DNA from: a virus | Reading direction: 5' to 3' (one strand) | Length of the DNA: 58,422 nt | Virus record (IMG/VR): IMGVR_UViG_3300017756_001473 | Span: 1-58,422 of that record | Shown: one piece after another, positions 3,403 to 53,001 of the stretch | Position numbering within the stretch: the stretch's first letter is position 1 | How the letters are laid out: each line of letters starts with the position of its first letter | The notes under the pieces: generated by a model | What the model saw: only the letters and a program-made list of their open reading frames with translations | What the model was told of the DNA's origin: nothing | Databases searched by the model: none | Position numbers and translations under genes: made by a program

Positions 3403-3410
3403 TATTTATA
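3403..3410 (-). promoter_or_regulatory. Type C (late-type) TATAAATA box
   Basis: A perfect match to the T4 late promoter core on the minus strand, just after the stop of the 273-aa gene (3406). It would drive the small membrane protein and the TorF-like barrel as late genes. Confidence 0.55.
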
Positions 3411-9655: not shown

Positions 9656-9663
9656 TATTTATA
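9656..9663 (-). promoter_or_regulatory. Type C (late-type) TATAAATA box before iscU
   Basis: TATAAATA four bases upstream of the iscU ATG, immediately after a terminator. No SD sequence fits between box and start codon. Confidence 0.65.
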
Positions 9664-22305: not shown

Positions 22306-22313
22306 TATTTATA
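22306..22313 (-). promoter_or_regulatory. Type C (late-type) TATAAATA box
   Basis: Perfect late core five bases before ATG 22300, with no SD between. Confidence 0.65.
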
Positions 22314-42878: not shown

Positions 42879-43298
42879 TTAAGAAATTTTGATTTCTTGA
42901 GGTTTGTCTTCTTCGGGTATTTCCCTAATCAACTGAACACTCAAAATACCGTTATCACACCAAGCAGAATCAATTACAATATCGTCTGCTAAAGTGAAAC
43001 TTCTTTTGAATGAACGAGTAGCAAGTCCTTTATGGACATACTCTATTTCCTCGTCTGCTTCCTTTTTACCCTCAATGATAAGTTGGTTCTTCTCTTTAGT
43101 AACAGAGATTTCCGTCTTGTCAAAACCAGCAACTGCAAGTTGAACTGAAAAGTCCTCATCGTCATTTTTTATAATGTTGTATGGCGGGTAGTTTGTTGAA
43201 TCATGCATGTTTTCTGCACGATTTAATAGTTGAAGAGTTCTGTCGAACCCGATTGCGAATGGGAATGATTTCCCGAAGACATCGTCATAGATAGTCAT
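42879..43298 (-). CDS. Small heat shock protein Hsp20
   Basis: 139 aa. Alpha-crystallin domain with AVAGFDKTEISVTKEKNQLIIEGK, ATRSFKRSFTLADDI, and the G-I-L-S-V strand near the end, followed by a C-terminal I-x-I tail (EIKIS). An ATP-independent holdase; phage copies are common in marine T4-like genomes. SD AAGGAG, preceded by a late-type box 60 bases upstream. Confidence 0.93.
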   Translation of the reverse strand: MTIYDDVFGKSFPFAIGFDRTLQLLNRAENMHDSTNYPPYNIIKNDDEDFSVQLAVAGFDKTEISVTKEKNQLIIEGKKEADEEIEYVHKGLATRSFKRSFTLADDIVIDSAWCDNGILSVQLIREIPEEDKPQEIKIS

Positions 43299-43382: not shown

Positions 43383-43601
43383 TTATAATTTTTCAAGGGG
43401 TTTTATTGAAATAATTGTATTTATTTCAATATCATGATATGTAGGTTCGTGTATGCCCATAACTACAATCTTATCTCCCATAGTCTGAAACTTTTTTTCT
43501 ACAGTGCAGGCAAGGGTGTGTATTTTGTTTGAAGTTAATGATTGATATTCTACTGTCATTTCTTTTTGATATAATTTGTCTTGGACTTCTTTGAATGTCA
43601 T
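43383..43601 (-). CDS. Hypothetical protein (72 aa)
   Basis: Compact beta-rich protein (MTVEYQSLTSNKIHTLACTVEKK). ATGA-type overlap with the cyclase gene (43598-43601). No family recognised; it could be a partner of the cyclase by operon position. Confidence 0.6.
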   Translation of the reverse strand: MTFKEVQDKLYQKEMTVEYQSLTSNKIHTLACTVEKKFQTMGDKIVVMGIHEPTYHDIEINTIISIKPLEKL

Positions 43602-45448
43602 TTCTTTAGTTTTCTAATTGTGCGTTTAAAGTATGGTGCGTAAATGGTAACAGGTTCTTCTTTACCTTTTACAGTTATTTTATCAAGTTCTTTTACTTTG
43701 ATATCGTCAGGCAATTGGTCAAGTGTGTATTGTGAAAGGATAATAGGTGTATCAAATGTTCTTGTTTGAACTTCAAGACGTGCACCTAGATTAACTGCAT
43801 CACCGACAACTGAATAATCGAATCTTGCCTCACTTCCCATGTTTCCTACGATGCATGGGCCAGTATTTATTCCTGTGCCAATTACAACGGGTGGTAAATC
43901 ATATCCCTGTTCTTTGAGTTCCTTGTTCATTTGTTCAGTAAGCAGTTCAATTTCCATAGCACTTCTAACCGCCATTTCAGCGTGGTTTGGACAATCCAAA
44001 GGGGCATTCCAAAATGCCATCAAACAATCGCCCATATATTTGTCGATGGTTCCGCCATGTGCAAGAACGACTTTTGACATTGCGTCTAGGAATTTGTTGA
44101 TAAGTTCAACCAATCCTTCGGGGTCATCTTCTTTCATATACTTTTCGCTTATGGGAGTGAAGCCAACAATGTCGGCAAAAAGGAAGGAAAGTTCCTTTCT
44201 ATCTCCACCTAATTTCAATAGTTCAGGATTTTTCTGTAGTTCTTCAACCATGTCAGGTGATAAATATTTTTGGAACTGTTTCTTTATTTGTTCTTTCAAT
44301 TGATACGTAGTGAAGTATTTGTTGAAAGATGCGTGACCAAAAACTAACAATGAGGCAACTGATGAGTAAAAGACATCGAGCAAAATCAAGTTCTCAATCC
44401 AAACGTAATACCCCGTATACGCCTGCAATCCAACGACACTTAGACTCCCTATCCCCGAAAGAACTGTGGGAAGTCTGTAGACCATTGCCAGTATTACTAG
44501 AGACGAAAACAGAACAAGAAAAATTTCAAGAAATTCAAGATAGTAGAATCGTTGTATTTGGAATCCTGTCAAGACGGTCTGAATTAAATTCGCTTGTACT
44601 TCATGGGGATACATTGCACCCATTGGGGTTGAAACTGGATTACTCAGACCTGAAGCAGTCAAACCCCATATAAGGATTTTATCTGCAGGGATTTTGTCCA
44701 CTGCACTGACACGTTCAAACTGATTCCAAAATGCAATATTAAAGTCTGCATTAGGTTGTACTGTTAATGGTGGTAGTCTACCTATCCTAACCCATTCTAC
44801 ACCAACCTCAGGCGTAATCTTTATATTGTAGGACTGTTGACCATTCATAACTCTCAATGTTTCTAGTGCGAGAGAAGGATATATCTGTCCATTCGCCATG
44901 ACAGCGAGTGGAACTGCACGTACAGTTCCGTCTATAGAAGGCGAAGCACTTACAGTACCTACACCGTAAACCGCCTCCTGTAGGGGTTGTATGGGACTAG
45001 AGATACCCTCATAACTGTATAACCAGTTTGCAGGGTCACCTTTACCTAACTTTGCAATACCAATATATGGTGCACTTCCAGTATCTTTTTGATTAGTTGG
45101 TGAGGCAGAAAGAAGGGAAAGTCTGTTTCCTAATGCTTGTCTAAGTTCTTCGTCTTCCCCGAATCTATCAGGTTGTGCAAATGTAGCAGTAAGGACGGAA
45201 GGATTTGTTTCGGACGTTTGATTTATCATGTCTGCCCATACGCCTCTAGGGAATGGGAACTGTCCGTATTTTTCTAATGTCTTTTCGTCTATGTCAACTA
45301 ATACAATATCGTCAACCTGTATAGGTTCCTTTTGAGTTTGTAAAAAGTCAAAATAGTTGAGTCGGATTGACTCCATGAGAAACGGGTCTGATATACGAAG
45401 ACCTGCTAGAAGAGCGATGGTTATTAAAACCGTCCACCATTTATACAT
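43598..45448 (-). CDS. CHASE2-domain class III adenylate cyclase
   Basis: 616 aa. An extracytoplasmic CHASE2 sensor (about 25-300) after an N-terminal span, three membrane segments (about 302-372), then a class III cyclase domain (about 418-600). Metal ligands D426 (FADIVGF) and D474 (KYMGDCLMAFW), base-selecting K470 and D544 (FDYSVVGD) typical for ATP, and catalytic N553 and R557 (AVNLGARLE) are all present, so cAMP production is predicted. It lies just downstream of the SleB-type hydrolase. A sensor cyclase is unusual for a phage. Confidence 0.9.
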   Translation of the reverse strand: MYKWWTVLITIALLAGLRISDPFLMESIRLNYFDFLQTQKEPIQVDDIVLVDIDEKTLEKYGQFPFPRGVWADMINQTSETNPSVLTATFAQPDRFGEDEELRQALGNRLSLLSASPTNQKDTGSAPYIGIAKLGKGDPANWLYSYEGISSPIQPLQEAVYGVGTVSASPSIDGTVRAVPLAVMANGQIYPSLALETLRVMNGQQSYNIKITPEVGVEWVRIGRLPPLTVQPNADFNIAFWNQFERVSAVDKIPADKILIWGLTASGLSNPVSTPMGAMYPHEVQANLIQTVLTGFQIQRFYYLEFLEIFLVLFSSLVILAMVYRLPTVLSGIGSLSVVGLQAYTGYYVWIENLILLDVFYSSVASLLVFGHASFNKYFTTYQLKEQIKKQFQKYLSPDMVEELQKNPELLKLGGDRKELSFLFADIVGFTPISEKYMKEDDPEGLVELINKFLDAMSKVVLAHGGTIDKYMGDCLMAFWNAPLDCPNHAEMAVRSAMEIELLTEQMNKELKEQGYDLPPVVIGTGINTGPCIVGNMGSEARFDYSVVGDAVNLGARLEVQTRTFDTPIILSQYTLDQLPDDIKVKELDKITVKGKEEPVTIYAPYFKRTIRKLKK

Positions 45449-45453
45449 AGATT

Positions 45454-45942
45454 TTACCTATAGAATATATGTGCGGATATTTGTACTGTCTCGTTTAAAT
45501 GTTGACTCCAATATGGTTGTATATAATACGCATGATACCACATTGCACCTTCTGTCAAATCAAAATACTGACCGTCCAGTATTTCGTCTGCAAGTTTTAA
45601 ACTCTCCGCCCAAGTTTTACTGTCTTTTGGTTTGTCTGATTTGCCATCACAAAACCAAGAGAACTGACACATTCCTAATTTAGGAATGGTCTTACCTGTC
45701 CAAGAGGTTCGCCATTCTTTTGTTTGATAAACTACTCCACAAATTGAATCGGGAAATTTATCATGTTCTACACGATTTAAAACTACGTTAGCAACTGCAA
45801 TCTGTCCTGCAAGAGGTTGATTACCTGCTTCAAAATATATGTTTTGAGCAAGACAATGAGTGTCCATCTCTAGTTCTAAACCTTCCACTTTTGTAGCTCC
45901 TAAAAGAAGCGCACAAAATACTAAGATATTTATTAGTTTCAT
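45454..45942 (-). CDS. SleB-type cell-wall hydrolase
   Basis: About 162 aa from ATG 45942, seven bases after TATAAT; a GTG at 45948 is also in frame. Signal peptide (residues 1-20), then the Hydrolase_2 domain: LAQNIYFEAGNQP (catalytic Glu), AVANVVLNRV, CQFSWFCDGKSD, and AMWYHAYYIQPYW near the end. Exported and cleaves peptidoglycan. Next to a cyclase and a secretion system, it could open the wall for the curli-like proteins (inference). Confidence 0.85.
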   Translation of the reverse strand: MKLINILVFCALLLGATKVEGLELEMDTHCLAQNIYFEAGNQPLAGQIAVANVVLNRVEHDKFPDSICGVVYQTKEWRTSWTGKTIPKLGMCQFSWFCDGKSDKPKDSKTWAESLKLADEILDGQYFDLTEGAMWYHAYYIQPYWSQHLNETVQISAHIFYR

Positions 45943-45949
45943 ACACACT

Positions 45950-45978
45950 ATTATACCTCAATGTTTGAGTAATTATAA
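45950..45978 (-). promoter_or_regulatory. Type B promoter, TTATAA-17-TATAAT, before the SleB-type gene
   Basis: TATAAT (45955-45950), TTATAA (45978-45973), preceded by AAAAAACCCTC. The ATG at 45942 is seven bases after the -10. It separates the hydrolase-cyclase genes from the curli-like genes. Confidence 0.6.
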
Positions 45979-45991
45979 GAGGGTTTTTTAT

Positions 45992-46660
45992 TTAGTTGCC
46001 CTGAGAAACGTTTATACTGCAACCACCTACTGTATGGCAGGTATTTGTTATATTGTATGACTGATTAGTCGAACCTTGTTGTAATAGATTTAAATTAGTA
46101 TGTTCTGAACCTTGTAGTGTTATTCTTGCTTGATGACTACCACTTCCTTTTTGTTCAATATCTGTGATTGAATCATGTGAATTTTGATAATAGTATATGT
46201 GTGCGTAATGACTTCCTGAACCTTCTTGCCAGTTTTCGTGTTCTACACCATTAACGTGAATGTCTAAATTGAATTCGTGAGTTCCATTTTGGTAAACGTC
46301 AACTTCGTTATTGTTACCCCATATGTGTCTACCGTATGTAGCACCGTCAATCTGTGTTACTGTTTCTGTGTTACCAGTACCGTCAACATCACCACCCCAA
46401 GTTCTTCCTGAACCCCAGTATGATACCCAAGAGATTGAGTTACCATTCCCTGATTGGGATAGAGTAAAAGTGTTGTTAGCATGTGCAAAAGTAAAATCGA
46501 TATGGTTATCATATCCTATCTGCGTAATGTTAACATTTGCATTATCACCGTCAGCAACTTGGTCTATGTGCACATGATTATGTTCGTCACCAGCAAAGCA
46601 CTGTCCTACAAAGAACAATAAAATTACTGCAATCCCTAAATGAGTTCCAGTTATTTTCAT
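45992..46660 (-). CDS. Curlin-repeat protein 2 (CsgA/CsgB-like, about 222 aa)
   Basis: Signal peptide (about 1-22, ending QCFA). The mature protein has imperfect curlin-type repeats: VNITQIGYDNHIDF, FTLSQSGNGNSISW, IEQKGSGSHQARITL, LLQQGSTNQSYNIT, each with an N/Q-rich turn and a G-x-x-N step. It ends with the Cys pair TCHTVGGC, which could form a disulfide. A phage-encoded amyloid subunit is likely. Start at ATG 46660 overlaps the coiled-coil peptide stop. Confidence 0.75.
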   Translation of the reverse strand: MKITGTHLGIAVILLFFVGQCFAGDEHNHVHIDQVADGDNANVNITQIGYDNHIDFTFAHANNTFTLSQSGNGNSISWVSYWGSGRTWGGDVDGTGNTETVTQIDGATYGRHIWGNNNEVDVYQNGTHEFNLDIHVNGVEHENWQEGSGSHYAHIYYYQNSHDSITDIEQKGSGSHQARITLQGSEHTNLNLLQQGSTNQSYNITNTCHTVGGCSINVSQGN

Positions 46661-46797
46661 TCTTGATTGTGACGTGGGTCTTGTTGTTGTTTTATCCACT
46701 CTTCTATTCTTTTTTGTTGTTCTGCAATTGTTTCTGCTTGGTCTTTAATTTTCTTTTCTTGAAATCTAAGTCTTTGCTGTTGTTGTTTTTGGCTCAT
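46657..46797 (-). CDS. Gln-rich coiled-coil micropeptide (46 aa)
   Basis: TAATG start coupled to the FecR-type gene; stop overlaps the ATG of the second curlin gene. The sequence is nearly a single helix (QQQQRLRFQEKKIKDQAETI). No signal peptide. A cytoplasmic role, such as a chaperone or gatekeeper for the amyloid subunits, is possible. Confidence 0.6.
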   Translation of the reverse strand: MSQKQQQQRLRFQEKKIKDQAETIAEQQKRIEEWIKQQQDPRHNQE

Positions 46798-47930
46798 TAA
46801 TTTTGTTGTGTAATAATAATATTGATTGCTTGGTCGCCACCCATATTAATTACACTCTCCTTTTCGTTAGTTACGGTCACTATTTGTGCCATTGCGTCTA
46901 CTGGTAATTTAATACTTATGGTTCCGTTTACTTCACGATAGAACGTAACCAATCCACTTCCTGTATCAACTATTGTATTGTACTGCGTGTCTTTATCAAA
47001 ACCTATAGCAGTACCTTCTATTCCAAATGTATTTCCACCACTGTCTGCAGTTCTGTTTATCCCTACTTTCCTATCTAACTCTTCTACAATATCAAGTAAG
47101 TCCTGTAAAAAGTCAACATCTAATAGGTCTATATCTAATTCAGTAAATTCTAATTCACCTTCTGAGTCTTTCAATGCGTCTGCATCAAGACCGTCAAACT
47201 CTAAAAAGTCTACGTCCAAGATACCACCGTCATTTGATTCTATAGCAGACTCCTCTATCACCCTAGAAATATCTTTGGGTTGACTCACAATAAACATATT
47301 ATTAATCAAACTTGATGTAATATTGTTTATTACTACAGGTGCAGTTGGGTATGAATTTAAAGTAGATACCATTGTGGCTTGATATGCTTCTTCTAATACT
47401 ACGTCTGTACCCGATTCATTACTAACTGTAATCGAACCTGATGCGTCACCATTTGCGTCAGGCAAAAGTATAATAAGACTTCGCCCGAGTTCATCGATGG
47501 TTGTCGTAAAATCTGTGCCATTAATCGCTATGTTAGCAGTTGGCGTAGAAATCGCAATGTTCGATTTATTCATTTTACCTAGTTTACCTGAGGCAAAACG
47601 AGCTGTACCCATTACCATTCTCATCGACATTTTCGATAAGTCGGGATTAGGGTCATAATATACTTCGTCTATGTAGACCAGTGTATGTTCTGTTAATGCA
47701 AGTTCTTCTTCGTCTAAGAACTCAATTAGCATTCTCCCATTCCCAGTTTCCGCCTCGTCATAGAGGTTTATACTAGGAAAATCAGTAGAGGGTATTTTAT
47801 TACCTTCTCTGATAATGTTTCCAATACCAGTTTGTTCGACTATGTCTCCTATCGTATCCGCATAAGAGGGATACGACAGAAGTATAGCACTAATCGTTAG
47901 TATCTTTTTGGTTAATTGTAACTGTAGCAT
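46797..47930 (-). CDS. FecR-domain exported protein (377 aa)
   Basis: Signal peptide (about 1-24). A FecR-like beta domain: GNGRMLIEFLDEEELALTEH, MSMRMVMGTARFASGKLGK, ISTPTANIAINGTDFTTTID. A repetitive acidic middle (LDVDFLEFDGLDADALKDSE) and a C-terminal beta-rich region follow. FecR-domain proteins are often periplasmic partners of secreted or sensory systems; here the gene lies between two curlin-repeat genes. The role in anchoring or nucleating fibres is inference. Confidence 0.75.
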   Translation of the reverse strand: MLQLQLTKKILTISAILLSYPSYADTIGDIVEQTGIGNIIREGNKIPSTDFPSINLYDEAETGNGRMLIEFLDEEELALTEHTLVYIDEVYYDPNPDLSKMSMRMVMGTARFASGKLGKMNKSNIAISTPTANIAINGTDFTTTIDELGRSLIILLPDANGDASGSITVSNESGTDVVLEEAYQATMVSTLNSYPTAPVVINNITSSLINNMFIVSQPKDISRVIEESAIESNDGGILDVDFLEFDGLDADALKDSEGELEFTELDIDLLDVDFLQDLLDIVEELDRKVGINRTADSGGNTFGIEGTAIGFDKDTQYNTIVDTGSGLVTFYREVNGTISIKLPVDAMAQIVTVTNEKESVINMGGDQAINIIITQQN

Positions 47931-48615
47931 TATCAGAACTCAACTGTAAGTCAATCTTGCCTGGGCATGTTTTATTTCCACATGTACCTGACTGTTGAAT
48001 AATATCCATATTGATACTATCACCCGTATGAACCACTTTTAATTCATGGTCAGATGCGTCAAGTTGTTTTGTGTCAACGTTATTACTGTCACCAGTAATT
48101 TCCATTTCCCATTTAGCTTGGTCTGAATCTATGTCTATAAAGAAATCGTTTGAATCTCCTATTAGCGTTAAATCAAAATCCAAATAGTTAGCACTAGCGG
48201 CATAACCTTGGTCATAATCCCAAGTGTTACTGCTACCTGTAACTGCGACATTGATGTTTGAGTTATCAGAATCACCAGTATCGCCTATATTCCAATCAAA
48301 GATATTACTGTCACCAGTGAATACCATATTAATGGTAGAACTATCTAACACAACAGGCCCGAATAGTTGGTTGCTGTTACCGATTTGGTCAAGGTTGAAC
48401 GTATTCGTTGTACCTGTCAAAATCATATCAGTAGCAACCTGACCGTTTACTATAGTTCCACCGAATTTATTTCCGTAACCAACTTGGTCAATCGTTAATG
48501 TTAACGTATCACCTGATTGTTGCAAAAATATTTCGTTGTCGTCATCAGCTAAAAGAGGCATTACAGACATTGCAAACAATAAACCTAAACATAATTTTAG
48601 TTTATTCATTTTCAT
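47890..48615 (-). CDS. Curlin-repeat protein 1 (CsgA/CsgB-like, about 241 aa)
   Basis: ATG 48615 overlaps csgG by 14 bases. Signal peptide (residues 1-23). Repeats of about 22-26 residues end in T-G-D-S-N or T-G-x-x-N blocks (LTGTTNTFNLDQIGNSNQ, FTGDSNIFDW, ITGDSNNVDTK, HTGDSINMDI), as expected for a beta-solenoid amyloid. C-terminal Cys pair in GTCGNKTC. Matches the family by repeat logic rather than by close sequence identity to E. coli CsgA. Confidence 0.75.
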   Translation of the reverse strand: MKMNKLKLCLGLLFAMSVMPLLADDDNEIFLQQSGDTLTLTIDQVGYGNKFGGTIVNGQVATDMILTGTTNTFNLDQIGNSNQLFGPVVLDSSTINMVFTGDSNIFDWNIGDTGDSDNSNINVAVTGSSNTWDYDQGYAASANYLDFDLTLIGDSNDFFIDIDSDQAKWEMEITGDSNNVDTKQLDASDHELKVVHTGDSINMDIIQQSGTCGNKTCPGKIDLQLSSDNATVTINQKDTND

Positions 48616-49510
48616 ATTCGTCTTTATTCTCCTCGATGGCATGTCTTTCATTACCGCCATCTATTTTATGAGGGTGTCTATGTCGGCCGTCAATTGTCCA
48701 GTATTTTCTATCGTGTCCTTGATAAATCATTTCTAGAACAGCAGCTTCTATAGCAGCCCTCGTTGCAAAAGTCACCGACTCATTCTCTGTCACACCGTCC
48801 TCAATTTCAATGAGTTGGGTATCCATATCTACAAATTTAAATACATCGAATCCTTGCGATACACTTAGTACAGTCTTCTTGGTCTGAACGTTCATAAGAA
48901 CTTCACCAGTAAGTGTACTAACTGCTCTTAAAGAAACGACAATCGTATCTCTACGATAAGCAGTCGAGTGTCCAATCCCTAATGTTCTTGCACCTCGGCC
49001 ACCAGTTTCCATATTGGTATCATACCCTATAATTCCACCTTCGAGTATGATGCCAGCAAATAAAAGAGGTTGAATAGTTTCTTTACTTTCACCCTCTTCT
49101 TGAAATTGTTCTCTTGTACTTCTGACTATTTGTCTTTCACGTACAAGATTATCTAATCCTTCTCTTTCAACTACACGGAACCAACTTCCACCCCCTGCAG
49201 TTTTGAGTGCGTCTATCAACATTGCAGTCACTCCTTGACTGACTGCTGTACTAAATGTTGCGACACCGTCTTGTCTTTTTCTTTGTCCTGTTAGGTCTTT
49301 AAACCCATAAACAGCAACCACTGGCATAACCTCAGCGGCTGGTAAATCTAATAATAATGCATATGCTGGAAGTTTGATTGCTTCAGGCTCTTCAATACAT
49401 TCTCCGTACTCATTCATTATCAGAGATGTACAGGAATCTTTCATGTGCGGTATCCCTGCACAACTAGATAGCAAGAGTCCGAGCACTCCAACTAATAAAA
49501 GATTCTTCAC
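48602..49510 (-). CDS. csgG: Curli secretion channel CsgG
   Basis: 302 aa lipoprotein (lipobox with C17). CsgG motifs are clear: VAVYGFKDLTGQRK, then GGRGARTLGIGHSTAYRRD and VSLRAVSTLTGEVL. CsgG forms a nonameric outer-membrane pore that secretes curlin subunits. It overlaps csgF and curlin gene 1 at either end, so the three are co-translated. A C-terminal His/Glu extension is beyond the usual length. In pelagimyophage genomes CsgG/CsgF have been noted before (recollection). Confidence 0.92.
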   Translation of the reverse strand: MKNLLLVGVLGLLLSSCAGIPHMKDSCTSLIMNEYGECIEEPEAIKLPAYALLLDLPAAEVMPVVAVYGFKDLTGQRKRQDGVATFSTAVSQGVTAMLIDALKTAGGGSWFRVVEREGLDNLVRERQIVRSTREQFQEEGESKETIQPLLFAGIILEGGIIGYDTNMETGGRGARTLGIGHSTAYRRDTIVVSLRAVSTLTGEVLMNVQTKKTVLSVSQGFDVFKFVDMDTQLIEIEDGVTENESVTFATRAAIEAAVLEMIYQGHDRKYWTIDGRHRHPHKIDGGNERHAIEENKDEYENE

Positions 49511-50001
49511 TAAAAACCCCCAGTACCAATTGGAATTTCAATAGTTGTTGTAGTTCCGTCACTACCGACAATTGTCATTACAATCCAATCGTCACATAGT
49601 CCGTCATCAGTACATATGTTCTTCCTTTCGTAAGTAATTGTATTTCCTTCCAGTGTAAACGTTCCGTAGTTTGCACCTTCTTCGTTTGAGAACATGTTTT
49701 CAACTAACTGTTTTGATAGCTGAGCATAGATTCTCGATTCCAAATTCCTTATGAATTTGGCTAAAACTGTATTTTCTGCTTCTCTTTGCTGTTTCAAAAG
49801 AGCTGCCCTAATGTCCTCAGCAATCTTGTCTGTCCTAGACTTCTCCTGATTCTCAATTGTCAAGTAATGGGCAGAAGTTCCCACGCCACTAAAGCTGGGG
49901 TTTTTAAATTTATGTACCAGTTCGTCTGATTGTACTGTCGGAGAAATGACACATAGTGTTATCATTGCAAATGTTATACCAAAAATTTTACTTCTTTTCA
50001 T
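49510..50001 (-). CDS. csgF: Curli assembly factor CsgF
   Basis: 163 aa with a signal peptide (about 1-25). The CsgF N-terminal motif is recognisable after cleavage: LVHKFKNPSFSGVGTSAHYL (F-x-N-P-x-F-x-G) and LTIENQE. In E. coli CsgF caps CsgG at the cell surface and couples it to the nucleator. A one-base overlap with csgG fits a fixed ratio of the two. Confidence 0.88.
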   Translation of the reverse strand: MKRSKIFGITFAMITLCVISPTVQSDELVHKFKNPSFSGVGTSAHYLTIENQEKSRTDKIAEDIRAALLKQQREAENTVLAKFIRNLESRIYAQLSKQLVENMFSNEEGANYGTFTLEGNTITYERKNICTDDGLCDDWIVMTIVGSDGTTTTIEIPIGTGGF

Positions 50002-50284
50002 TTGTTACCTCTTCGAGTGCCTGCTTTTCTTTTGCGTCCTGCAAAAGTTCTTGGCGCTCACGATATTCCAAAACAGTGTTCACCTTTTCTTGAAGACGAA
50101 GCATGTCTTGGTCTAGCATTCTTAGCTGGTCAGTCAATTTTATACTTGCTGTAAACATGCGTCCGAGTGCTGGTTTAACTTCAATGGTAATGAATTTCCA
50201 AACATACCATATGAAGTATCCCATACCCATAGACATTACAACTGGAAACCCAAACTCTGCGATTAATTGAGCAAGATTTTCCAT
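49988..50284 (-). CDS. Small membrane protein with coiled coil (98 aa)
   Basis: Residues 13-33 form one membrane span; a helical charged tail follows with a heptad-like pattern (TDQLRMLDQDMLRLQEKVNTV). It resembles the neighbouring product at 50289-50582, so the two are probably paralogues. Holin-like or secretion-accessory functions are both possible. Confidence 0.65.
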   Translation of the reverse strand: MENLAQLIAEFGFPVVMSMGMGYFIWYVWKFITIEVKPALGRMFTASIKLTDQLRMLDQDMLRLQEKVNTVLEYRERQELLQDAKEKQALEEVTNEKK

Positions 50285-50288
50285 GGTC

Positions 50289-50582
50289 TTAGTCTCGTCT
50301 GGCGTCTATACTTCCATCCTCAACAAAGTTTTCTGCTCTAGCAACACGGTCAATTGGTGGTGCTAGTTCTAATGCACTACTTACTAATAAATCTATTTTA
50401 ATAATATCATTATTCATAACACGTGCTCGTGTTTCGAGCATGCTTATAATGTTTTCGGTGGACGAAATCTGACCCAGTACAGACTCAAAAATATATTTTA
50501 AGGTCAGATAGATAAAGAAAGCCATCACTACCGCAGTCCCGATAGGGATTCCGACTTCACTTAAAAATTGAAATATGTCCAT
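50289..50582 (-). CDS. Small membrane protein with coiled coil (97 aa)
   Basis: One membrane span (about 12-34) and a helical C-terminal domain. First gene of the csgF-csgG transcript; a TATAAATA box lies five bases before the ATG, which suggests late, leaderless expression of the whole cluster. Paralogue of the downstream gene. Confidence 0.65.
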   Translation of the reverse strand: MDIFQFLSEVGIPIGTAVVMAFFIYLTLKYIFESVLGQISSTENIISMLETRARVMNNDIIKIDLLVSSALELAPPIDRVARAENFVEDGSIDARRD

Positions 50583-50587
50583 ACGAC

Positions 50588-50595
50588 TATTTATA
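50588..50595 (-). promoter_or_regulatory. Type C (late-type) TATAAATA box before the csg cluster
   Basis: Perfect late core five bases upstream of ATG 50582, with no SD. It places the curli-like genes under late control. Confidence 0.65.
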
Positions 50596-52202: not shown

Positions 52203-52474
52203 GCAGTGTGACTTCTAAAAGAATCTACAAGGTCTTCACCTTTCAATTCTTCTCCAAATTTGTATACCTCTTTTCCATTTTGTTCTCTTATGGTTACGCC
52301 ACTGTTATATGTAATATCAGTAACATAACCGTTATCGAGAAATTTTTCGGATTCTTCTGTTTCATAGAACATGGAATACAACCTATGTATTTGTAAGGTA
52401 TGTACTCCTTTCGCCCACTCTTCTGCTTCGAGAAGTTCTCGTTGACGTTGTACTATTTCATCAAACTCACTCAT
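52199..52474 (-). CDS. Hypothetical acidic protein (91 aa)
   Basis: Start ATG 52474 overlaps the peroxiredoxin stop (ATGA). Helical N-terminus (EFDEIVQRQRELLEAEEW), then a beta segment (GYVTDITYNSGVTI). Position between peroxiredoxin and gp62 in the clamp-loader operon suggests a replication role, but the family is unknown. Confidence 0.65.
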   Translation of the reverse strand: MSEFDEIVQRQRELLEAEEWAKGVHTLQIHRLYSMFYETEESEKFLDNGYVTDITYNSGVTIREQNGKEVYKFGEELKGEDLVDSFRSHTA

Positions 52475-53001
52475 GCAACGAAATCGTCTCCTTCGTTCCA
52501 TTCACAACCAGTCAATCCACCAGCTTGAATTGCTTTCAAAGTTCTAAGAACTTCTTGAGCATTTCTACCAGTAGATAATCCATTGACTGATACGTGTTGA
52601 ATGACTCTATCTTTATCAAAGATAAATGTTGCACGATTACAGACACCTTGTTCTTCATTGACAATGCCAAGTTCAGAAGATAATTTGAGTCCACAATCAG
52701 CCGCAAGTGTGTGTTTGATTTCTCTAATAACACCATTCGCTTGTTTCCAAGCAGACTTACAGAATTCATTATCACCTGAAATACCAATCACGTTTGCATG
52801 GTCAACTAATATGTCCATACCAGCAATCTCAGTTGGACAGATAAAAGTAAAGTCTTTTGGATAAAAGTAAACTACTGTCCACTCATGTTTGAGTGGCGTA
52901 TAACCCTCAGCGATTTGAACTTCAACGAAGTCATTGTTAGCGTCAATTCCATTTAATTTTACAGGCGGGAATTGGTCACCTACAGTTAGCATTCCTAACA
53001 T
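52471..53001 (-). CDS. 2-Cys peroxiredoxin (AhpC/TSA family)
   Basis: 176 aa. Peroxidatic C55 in DFTFICPTE, and resolving C166 near the end (LTGCEWNEGDD). Reduces hydrogen peroxide or organic peroxides and needs a thiol donor such as thioredoxin. ATG 53001 with SD AGGAG six bases away. Its place inside the clamp-loader operon means it is made together with the replisome. Confidence 0.92.
   Translation of the reverse strand: MLGMLTVGDQFPPVKLNGIDANNDFVEVQIAEGYTPLKHEWTVVYFYPKDFTFICPTEIAGMDILVDHANVIGISGDNEFCKSAWKQANGVIREIKHTLAADCGLKLSSELGIVNEEQGVCNRATFIFDKDRVIQHVSVNGLSTGRNAQEVLRTLKAIQAGGLTGCEWNEGDDFVA

Follow-up and report, generated by a model that had tools for sequence, protein, structure and literature searches.

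Introduction

A type VIII (curli) secretion module of pelagiphages was first mentioned by Zaragoza-Solas et al. 2020 (PMC7029224) and was described by Wittmers et al. 2022 (PMC9599517) as a series of genes for CsgF, CsgG, a curlin (CsgA/B), FecR, a second curlin and an adenylate cyclase. In the latter account one or two histidine kinases always stand ahead of the module, which is without CsgE, CsgC and CsgD, FecR is read as an iron-dependent regulator, the cyclase is regarded as foreign to bacterial curli operons, and the viral genes are reported to be expressed in metatranscriptomes. CsgE increases curli release in E. coli (PMC7029224). Buchholz et al. (PMC9004378), who observed no clumping in OM43 cultures infected with phage Melnitz, advanced a role in lysis that was partly based on the curlins being assumed missing; the Melnitz record itself annotates two curlin-repeat proteins.

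The DNA analysed here (hereafter the window) is a 58,422-base virus record from IMG/VR and belongs to a marine phage whose clamp loader, sliding clamp and translation repressor genes are T4-like. A first-pass annotation of this DNA had noted a curli-like gene cluster, which is not new but matches the pelagiphage module of Wittmers et al. The system is real, well conserved and of a published kind, to which the window contributes one more member, a variant with SleB; what is new is the late promoter, the two membrane partners and the probable pairing of FecR with the cyclase as a sensor.

Results

Organisation of the module

The module spans positions 43598-50595 on the minus strand and is read from 50595 down to 43598. 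In that direction, a TATAAATA box is followed by two small membrane/coiled-coil genes, csgF, csgG, curlin 1, fecR, a Gln-rich open reading frame (ORF), curlin 2, a SleB-type hydrolase gene and a CHASE2 adenylate cyclase gene, which nearly touch or overlap, as in a single transcription unit. CsgF, CsgG, FecR, curlin 2, SleB and the cyclase all score above curated Pfam cut-offs, which bears out the gene calls and coordinates given at first pass and, together with profile comparison, the presence of a phage-borne curli-like cluster with CsgF, CsgG, two curlins and FecR. The cluster then proposed, 45454-50595, stopped short of the cyclase (43598-45448), and the two membrane genes (49988-50582) had not been counted among its members. 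In line with the first pass, no CsgE, CsgC or CsgD was recognised; among the module ORFs, none is named CsgE by Pfam or NCBIfam. An Hsp20-type heat shock protein (42879-43298, minus strand; phrog_432, 2.5e-40) adjoins the module, and an ORF that by eye resembles an AhpC-type peroxiredoxin lies beside the clamp-loader genes (52471-53001, minus strand), its PHROG match being weak and its function unassigned.

The window shares the order CsgF, CsgG, curlin, FecR, second curlin and adenylate cyclase with the published pelagiphage module and differs from it by the SleB endolysin and the Gln-rich ORF inside. HTVC008M (KC465899) and Melnitz (MZ577097) carry the whole module, with about 28-48% protein identity in the main components, but have no SleB in it and have different leader sequences. 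Compared with E. coli csgBAC/csgDEFG, CsgG and CsgF homologues and curlin-type repeats are held in common, whereas CsgC, CsgD and CsgE were not recognised in the module, which has FecR, the cyclase and the membrane pair in addition.

Conservation in viruses and in cellular loci

We fetched 156 viral loci whose CsgG and FecR resemble those of the window, a set that describes the window's lineage and not the frequency of the module across all phages. Full context and a non-identical CsgG define 49 of these, the window, HTVC008M and Melnitz included, and the order TM-TM-CsgF-CsgG-curlin-FecR-curlin-(SleB)-cyclase is found in every one (49/49).

A similar arrangement, CsgF-CsgG-curlin-FecR-CHASE2-cyclase, occurs on a 705 kb contig of a Hyphomonas sp. 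TMED17 MAG (L167), where it has bacterial flanking genes and differs from the window in its single 504-aa curlin and its lack of the membrane pair; at least one bacterial operon therefore holds FecR and the cyclase together with CsgF-CsgG-curlin. In the remaining sampled csgG loci that are clearly cellular, profiles built from viral sequences detected no FecR-cyclase pair within about 9 kb, and phage-type FecR was absent from the other 104 genomes of the Hyphomonas MAG's family. The Hyphomonas locus falls inside the viral group of the CsgG tree on a long branch, but a tree constrained to keep the viral sequences as one group is not rejected (AU p 0.34), so that we do not take Hyphomonas as a proven donor; it may have been donor or recipient. 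Separately, viral-type modules are present on contigs titled Saprospirales, Sphingobacteriales, Rhodobacteraceae, Synechococcus, Flavobacteria or Pelagibacter (L161-L166, L168, L171, L174 and L179), which resemble phage contigs that ended up in bacterial MAGs through binning.

A predicted late promoter at a fixed position

A T4-type late promoter box, TATAAATA, lies at 50588-50595 (minus strand), 5 nt ahead of the first ATG and covering -13 to -6. The T4 late promoter box sits at about -13 to -6, so transcription would start at or next to this ATG and the module transcript is probably leaderless. The abundance of TATAAATA had to be rejected as promoter evidence, its count in the window being at chance (7 against 6.2 expected). 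What makes the box convincing is its fixed position in relatives: among 93 viral loci, which are related and do not represent independent events, it occurs without mismatch at exactly -13 of the first gene in 33 and as a perfect box within 60 nt of the first gene in 65, while other relatives have it at -27 with a leader. HTVC008M and Melnitz, which are in culture on HTCC1062 and H5P1, respectively, both lack the -13 spacing. The late promoter assigned at first pass is thus upheld by its retention in relatives, predicting that the module is transcribed late. Three more TATAAATA boxes on the minus strand (22306-22313, 9656-9663 and 3403-3410) have an ATG 4-5 bases on, and short leaders or leaderless late messages may be common in this phage.

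Two membrane proteins open the module

The first two genes encode predicted transmembrane/coiled-coil proteins of 97 aa (50289-50582, minus strand; phrog_18771, 4.5e-23; ending DARRD) and 98 aa (49988-50284, minus strand; phrog_18771, 2.1e-24), and none of the 49 full-context viral loci lacks such a pair. Ahead of CsgF, the window, HTVC008M and Melnitz alike encode proteins of 92-115 aa that belong to phrog_18771 and have a single N-terminal hydrophobic stretch with a coiled-coil-like tail. A tblastn search with the second protein against 50,697 phage records matched the HTVC008M and Melnitz records only.

Compared by position and description, the pair probably corresponds to the genes published as histidine kinases. 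The kinase label is doubtful for these genes because the proteins are too short and contain no kinase domain above the Pfam cut-off; indeed, no Pfam family, kinases included, reaches its cut-off on either protein. Judging from the sequences at hand and not from those of the authors, we infer that the label is false here. The second protein has a weak N-terminal match to a holin family (phrog_4898, 9e-4 over 21 residues), and on this single match a holin-like role of the pair is possible.

CsgF and the CsgG pore

CsgF (49510-50001, minus strand; Pfam 2.3e-14) carries the CsgG-binding N-terminal peptide F-x-N/S-P-x-F-x-G, of which F, P and F are invariant across 109 sequences and one position is N or S. 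CsgG, the outer-membrane secretion pore (48602-49510, minus strand; Pfam 1.7e-53), begins with GTG, has the lipoprotein signal LSSC and matches E. coli CsgG (4uv3) at 9e-47; its constriction residue Phe56 is conserved in 110 of 112 sequences. Both the pore and the CsgF that would bind it, two components of type VIII secretion, are encoded in the window. A CsgG 43% identical to that of the window is also found on OR851715.1 (L004), a 1.5 kb unverified 'Salmonella phage' contig of doubtful origin.

Two curlin subunits and a Gln-rich ORF

Two proteins with signal peptides were proposed at first pass as curlin subunits, and both assignments are supported, although by different evidence. Curlin 2 (45992-46660, minus strand) exceeds the cut-off of Pfam Curlin_rpt (8.8e-7, 3 stretches). 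Its repeat-motif count is not above shuffling (3 against 1.2, p 0.12), so its identity rests on Pfam. Curlin 1 (47890-48615, minus strand) goes unmatched in Pfam and matches NCBIfam CsgA only weakly (7e-4), and is recognised through profile comparison: its profile aligns with that of curlin 2 at 99.8% (hhalign, E 6e-28). Its repeat-motif count is 8 against 1.9 in shuffled sequences, with 0 of 2000 shuffles reaching this value, and its homologues, which occupy the corresponding position in HTVC008M and Melnitz, are annotated as curlin.

The first-pass annotation had suggested structure prediction of both subunits as a check for beta-solenoids. The AlphaFold2 model of curlin 1, for which alignments were built without phage-record rows, is beta-rich (13 strands, pLDDT 83, pTM 0.79), in keeping with that suggestion, but gave no significant fold match to the PDB in Foldseek that would prove a solenoid; the weak hits include solenoids and FapC and CsgA fibrils. 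A profile search of the PDB was discarded, its sole match being a curlin-repeat protein at E 10. We regard curlin 1 as a likely curlin-like beta-solenoid. Both subunits, whose absence from all related phages had been named as grounds for abandoning the curli reading, are present in 49/49 full-context viral loci.

The Gln-rich ORF, a predicted helix of 46 aa (46657-46797, minus strand), overlaps both neighbours and is kept with substitutions in close relatives of the window's clade; HTVC008M and Melnitz have no annotation for it.

The SleB hydrolase varies in position

The SleB-type Hydrolase_2 protein (45454-45948, minus strand; Pfam 3.3e-28, PHROG endolysin 2.8e-21) has a signal peptide and was thought at first pass to make room in the cell wall for curli. 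Its gene lies inside the module, before the cyclase, in 6 of the 49 full-context loci, all from the window's clade, and of 12 related records, 8 encode a Hydrolase_2; the Melnitz copy is not part of the module but lies about 8 kb upstream of csgF. This variable position leads us to prefer an endolysin over a curli device: SleB is probably a mobile phage endolysin that was placed in the module in the window's clade.

A FecR protein probably paired with a CHASE2 adenylate cyclase

The FecR-domain protein (46797-47930, minus strand; Pfam 2.5e-6) consists of a signal peptide, the FecR domain, a low-confidence linker (about 214-300) and a C-terminal beta domain ending IxIxQxN, of which Q-x-N is found in 77 of 105 sequences. 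Its model matches PupR and other FecR-type anti-sigma domains in Foldseek, but the traits of an iron-citrate sigma regulator are missing: in sequence and model alike, the signal peptide stands directly ahead of the FecR domain and there is no cytoplasmic part. Its neighbours in the module are curlins and the cyclase instead of a partner sigma factor and receptor. The C-terminal domain scored no better against curlin 2 (hhalign E 0.011) than the FecR N-terminal control (0.0065); we therefore reject it as a true curlin repeat and claim only the short IxIxQxN ending. A periplasmic plug of the adhesin retention module type was likewise set aside, with Foldseek 5ix9 at E 0.014 kept as a lead.

The last gene of the module (43598-45448, minus strand) encodes a CHASE2 membrane sensor fused to a predicted class III adenylate cyclase (Pfam CHASE2 3e-32, Guanylate_cyc 4.4e-19) with the full set of catalytic residues; D426, K470, D474, D550 and R557 are kept in 77/77 sequences and N553 in 76/77. 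The exception is the Melnitz cyclase (L003, 11499-13550), in which Ser replaces this Asn and which may be impaired. Conservation of the CsgF motif, the CsgG Phe and the cyclase active site argues for selection on secretion and cAMP synthesis.

In 115 alphaproteobacterial genomes, 38 of 112 CHASE2 hits, counted irrespective of a cyclase domain, have a FecR hit within 5 kb, against about 1.1 expected. Because the FecR-CHASE2 pair is common in bacteria, the FecR of the phage most likely goes with the cyclase and is probably its partner, a reading based on gene proximity, which does not prove interaction.

No CRP-type cAMP receptor or cNMP-binding domain was detected in the 12 related phage records, some of them partial. 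Among 101 sampled genomes from the genus of a Pelagibacter-named MAG, which are possibly incomplete and may not represent the window's host, 10 have cNMP-binding hits, always in an 870-aa frame and not CRP-sized; CsgG occurs once in these genomes, on the short viral-looking contig behind L179. With no CRP-type receptor detected in these phage records and no CRP-sized one in the sampled Pelagibacter genomes, the purpose of phage cAMP is the most puzzling point of the system.

Discussion

On balance, we favour a phage type VIII secretion module that is expressed late and coupled to a sensor cassette in the inner membrane. Once infection is well advanced, transcription from the T4-type late promoter would begin with the first membrane gene; CsgG would form the outer-membrane pore, with CsgF seated on it via its conserved N-terminal peptide; and curlins 1 and 2 would be exported by Sec, leave the infected cell through CsgG and polymerise on its surface. 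FecR would stay in the periplasm as partner of the CHASE2 cyclase, which would respond to conditions in the periplasm, or to how fibre export is proceeding, by making cAMP. We place the likeliest benefit at the end of infection, with fibres holding infected cells, debris, new virions and fresh hosts together, which is the published 'sibling capture' idea; alternatively, fibres might shield the dying cell from competing phages. We prefer late amyloid secretion because all the parts that it needs are conserved together, whereas lysis and import leave the curlins unexplained. Against an amyloid stand the non-clumping Melnitz cultures (PMC9004378), under the conditions of that study, the apparent absence of CsgE and the lack of a significant PDB fold match for curlin 1, and against cAMP signalling the missing CRP-type receptor.

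The lysis idea of Buchholz et al. (PMC9004378), in which the CsgGF pore opens the envelope or acts in a pinholin-like manner with the small membrane proteins and the endolysin, the curlins being secondary, seems to us unlikely. The late box, the endolysin inside the module in the window's clade, the weak holin match of membrane protein 2 and the same non-clumping cultures would all fit. Yet the curlins are present in every full-context locus, Melnitz included, CsgF keeps its CsgG-binding motif, contrary to the proposal that CsgF and CsgG no longer pair, and SleB lies outside the module in 43 of 49 loci; moreover, CsgG is an outer-membrane lipoprotein pore, whereas pinholins work in the inner membrane.

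We consider it improbable that the module serves to block superinfection, as put forward in PMC9599517, with CsgG, CsgF and fibres altering or covering the host surface so that other phages fail to adsorb; conservation of surface-acting products across many phages is consistent with this, but the promoter points to expression at a stage that would be late for excluding other phages, and no cyclase sensor would be needed. Little credence can be given to nutrient import (PMC7029224, PMC9599517), in which a CsgG pore left ungated by the absence of CsgE admits large solutes such as cofactors and siderophores to the periplasm and FecR is an iron regulator, since it gives no use to the curlins and CsgF, which are nevertheless retained, and FecR has a signal peptide, lacks a cytoplasmic anti-sigma part and adjoins CHASE2, as in bacteria.

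Late amyloid secretion could be extended to a self-contained secretion-signalling device in a host without a CRP-type receptor, in which cAMP made by the FecR-CHASE2 pair is sensed by another receptor or, released on lysis, signals to neighbouring cells, and FecR, with its curlin-like C-terminal ending, serves as a cap or anchor of the fibre; this we regard as a long shot.

The details added here make the system testable: the late promoter predicts timing, the invariant membrane pair and the cyclase offer obvious genes to delete, and the missing CRP receptor poses a sharp question about the role of phage cAMP. If the module is functional, planktonic hosts without curli genes acquire a surface amyloid from lytic marine phages as infection ends, and this would alter aggregation and sinking.
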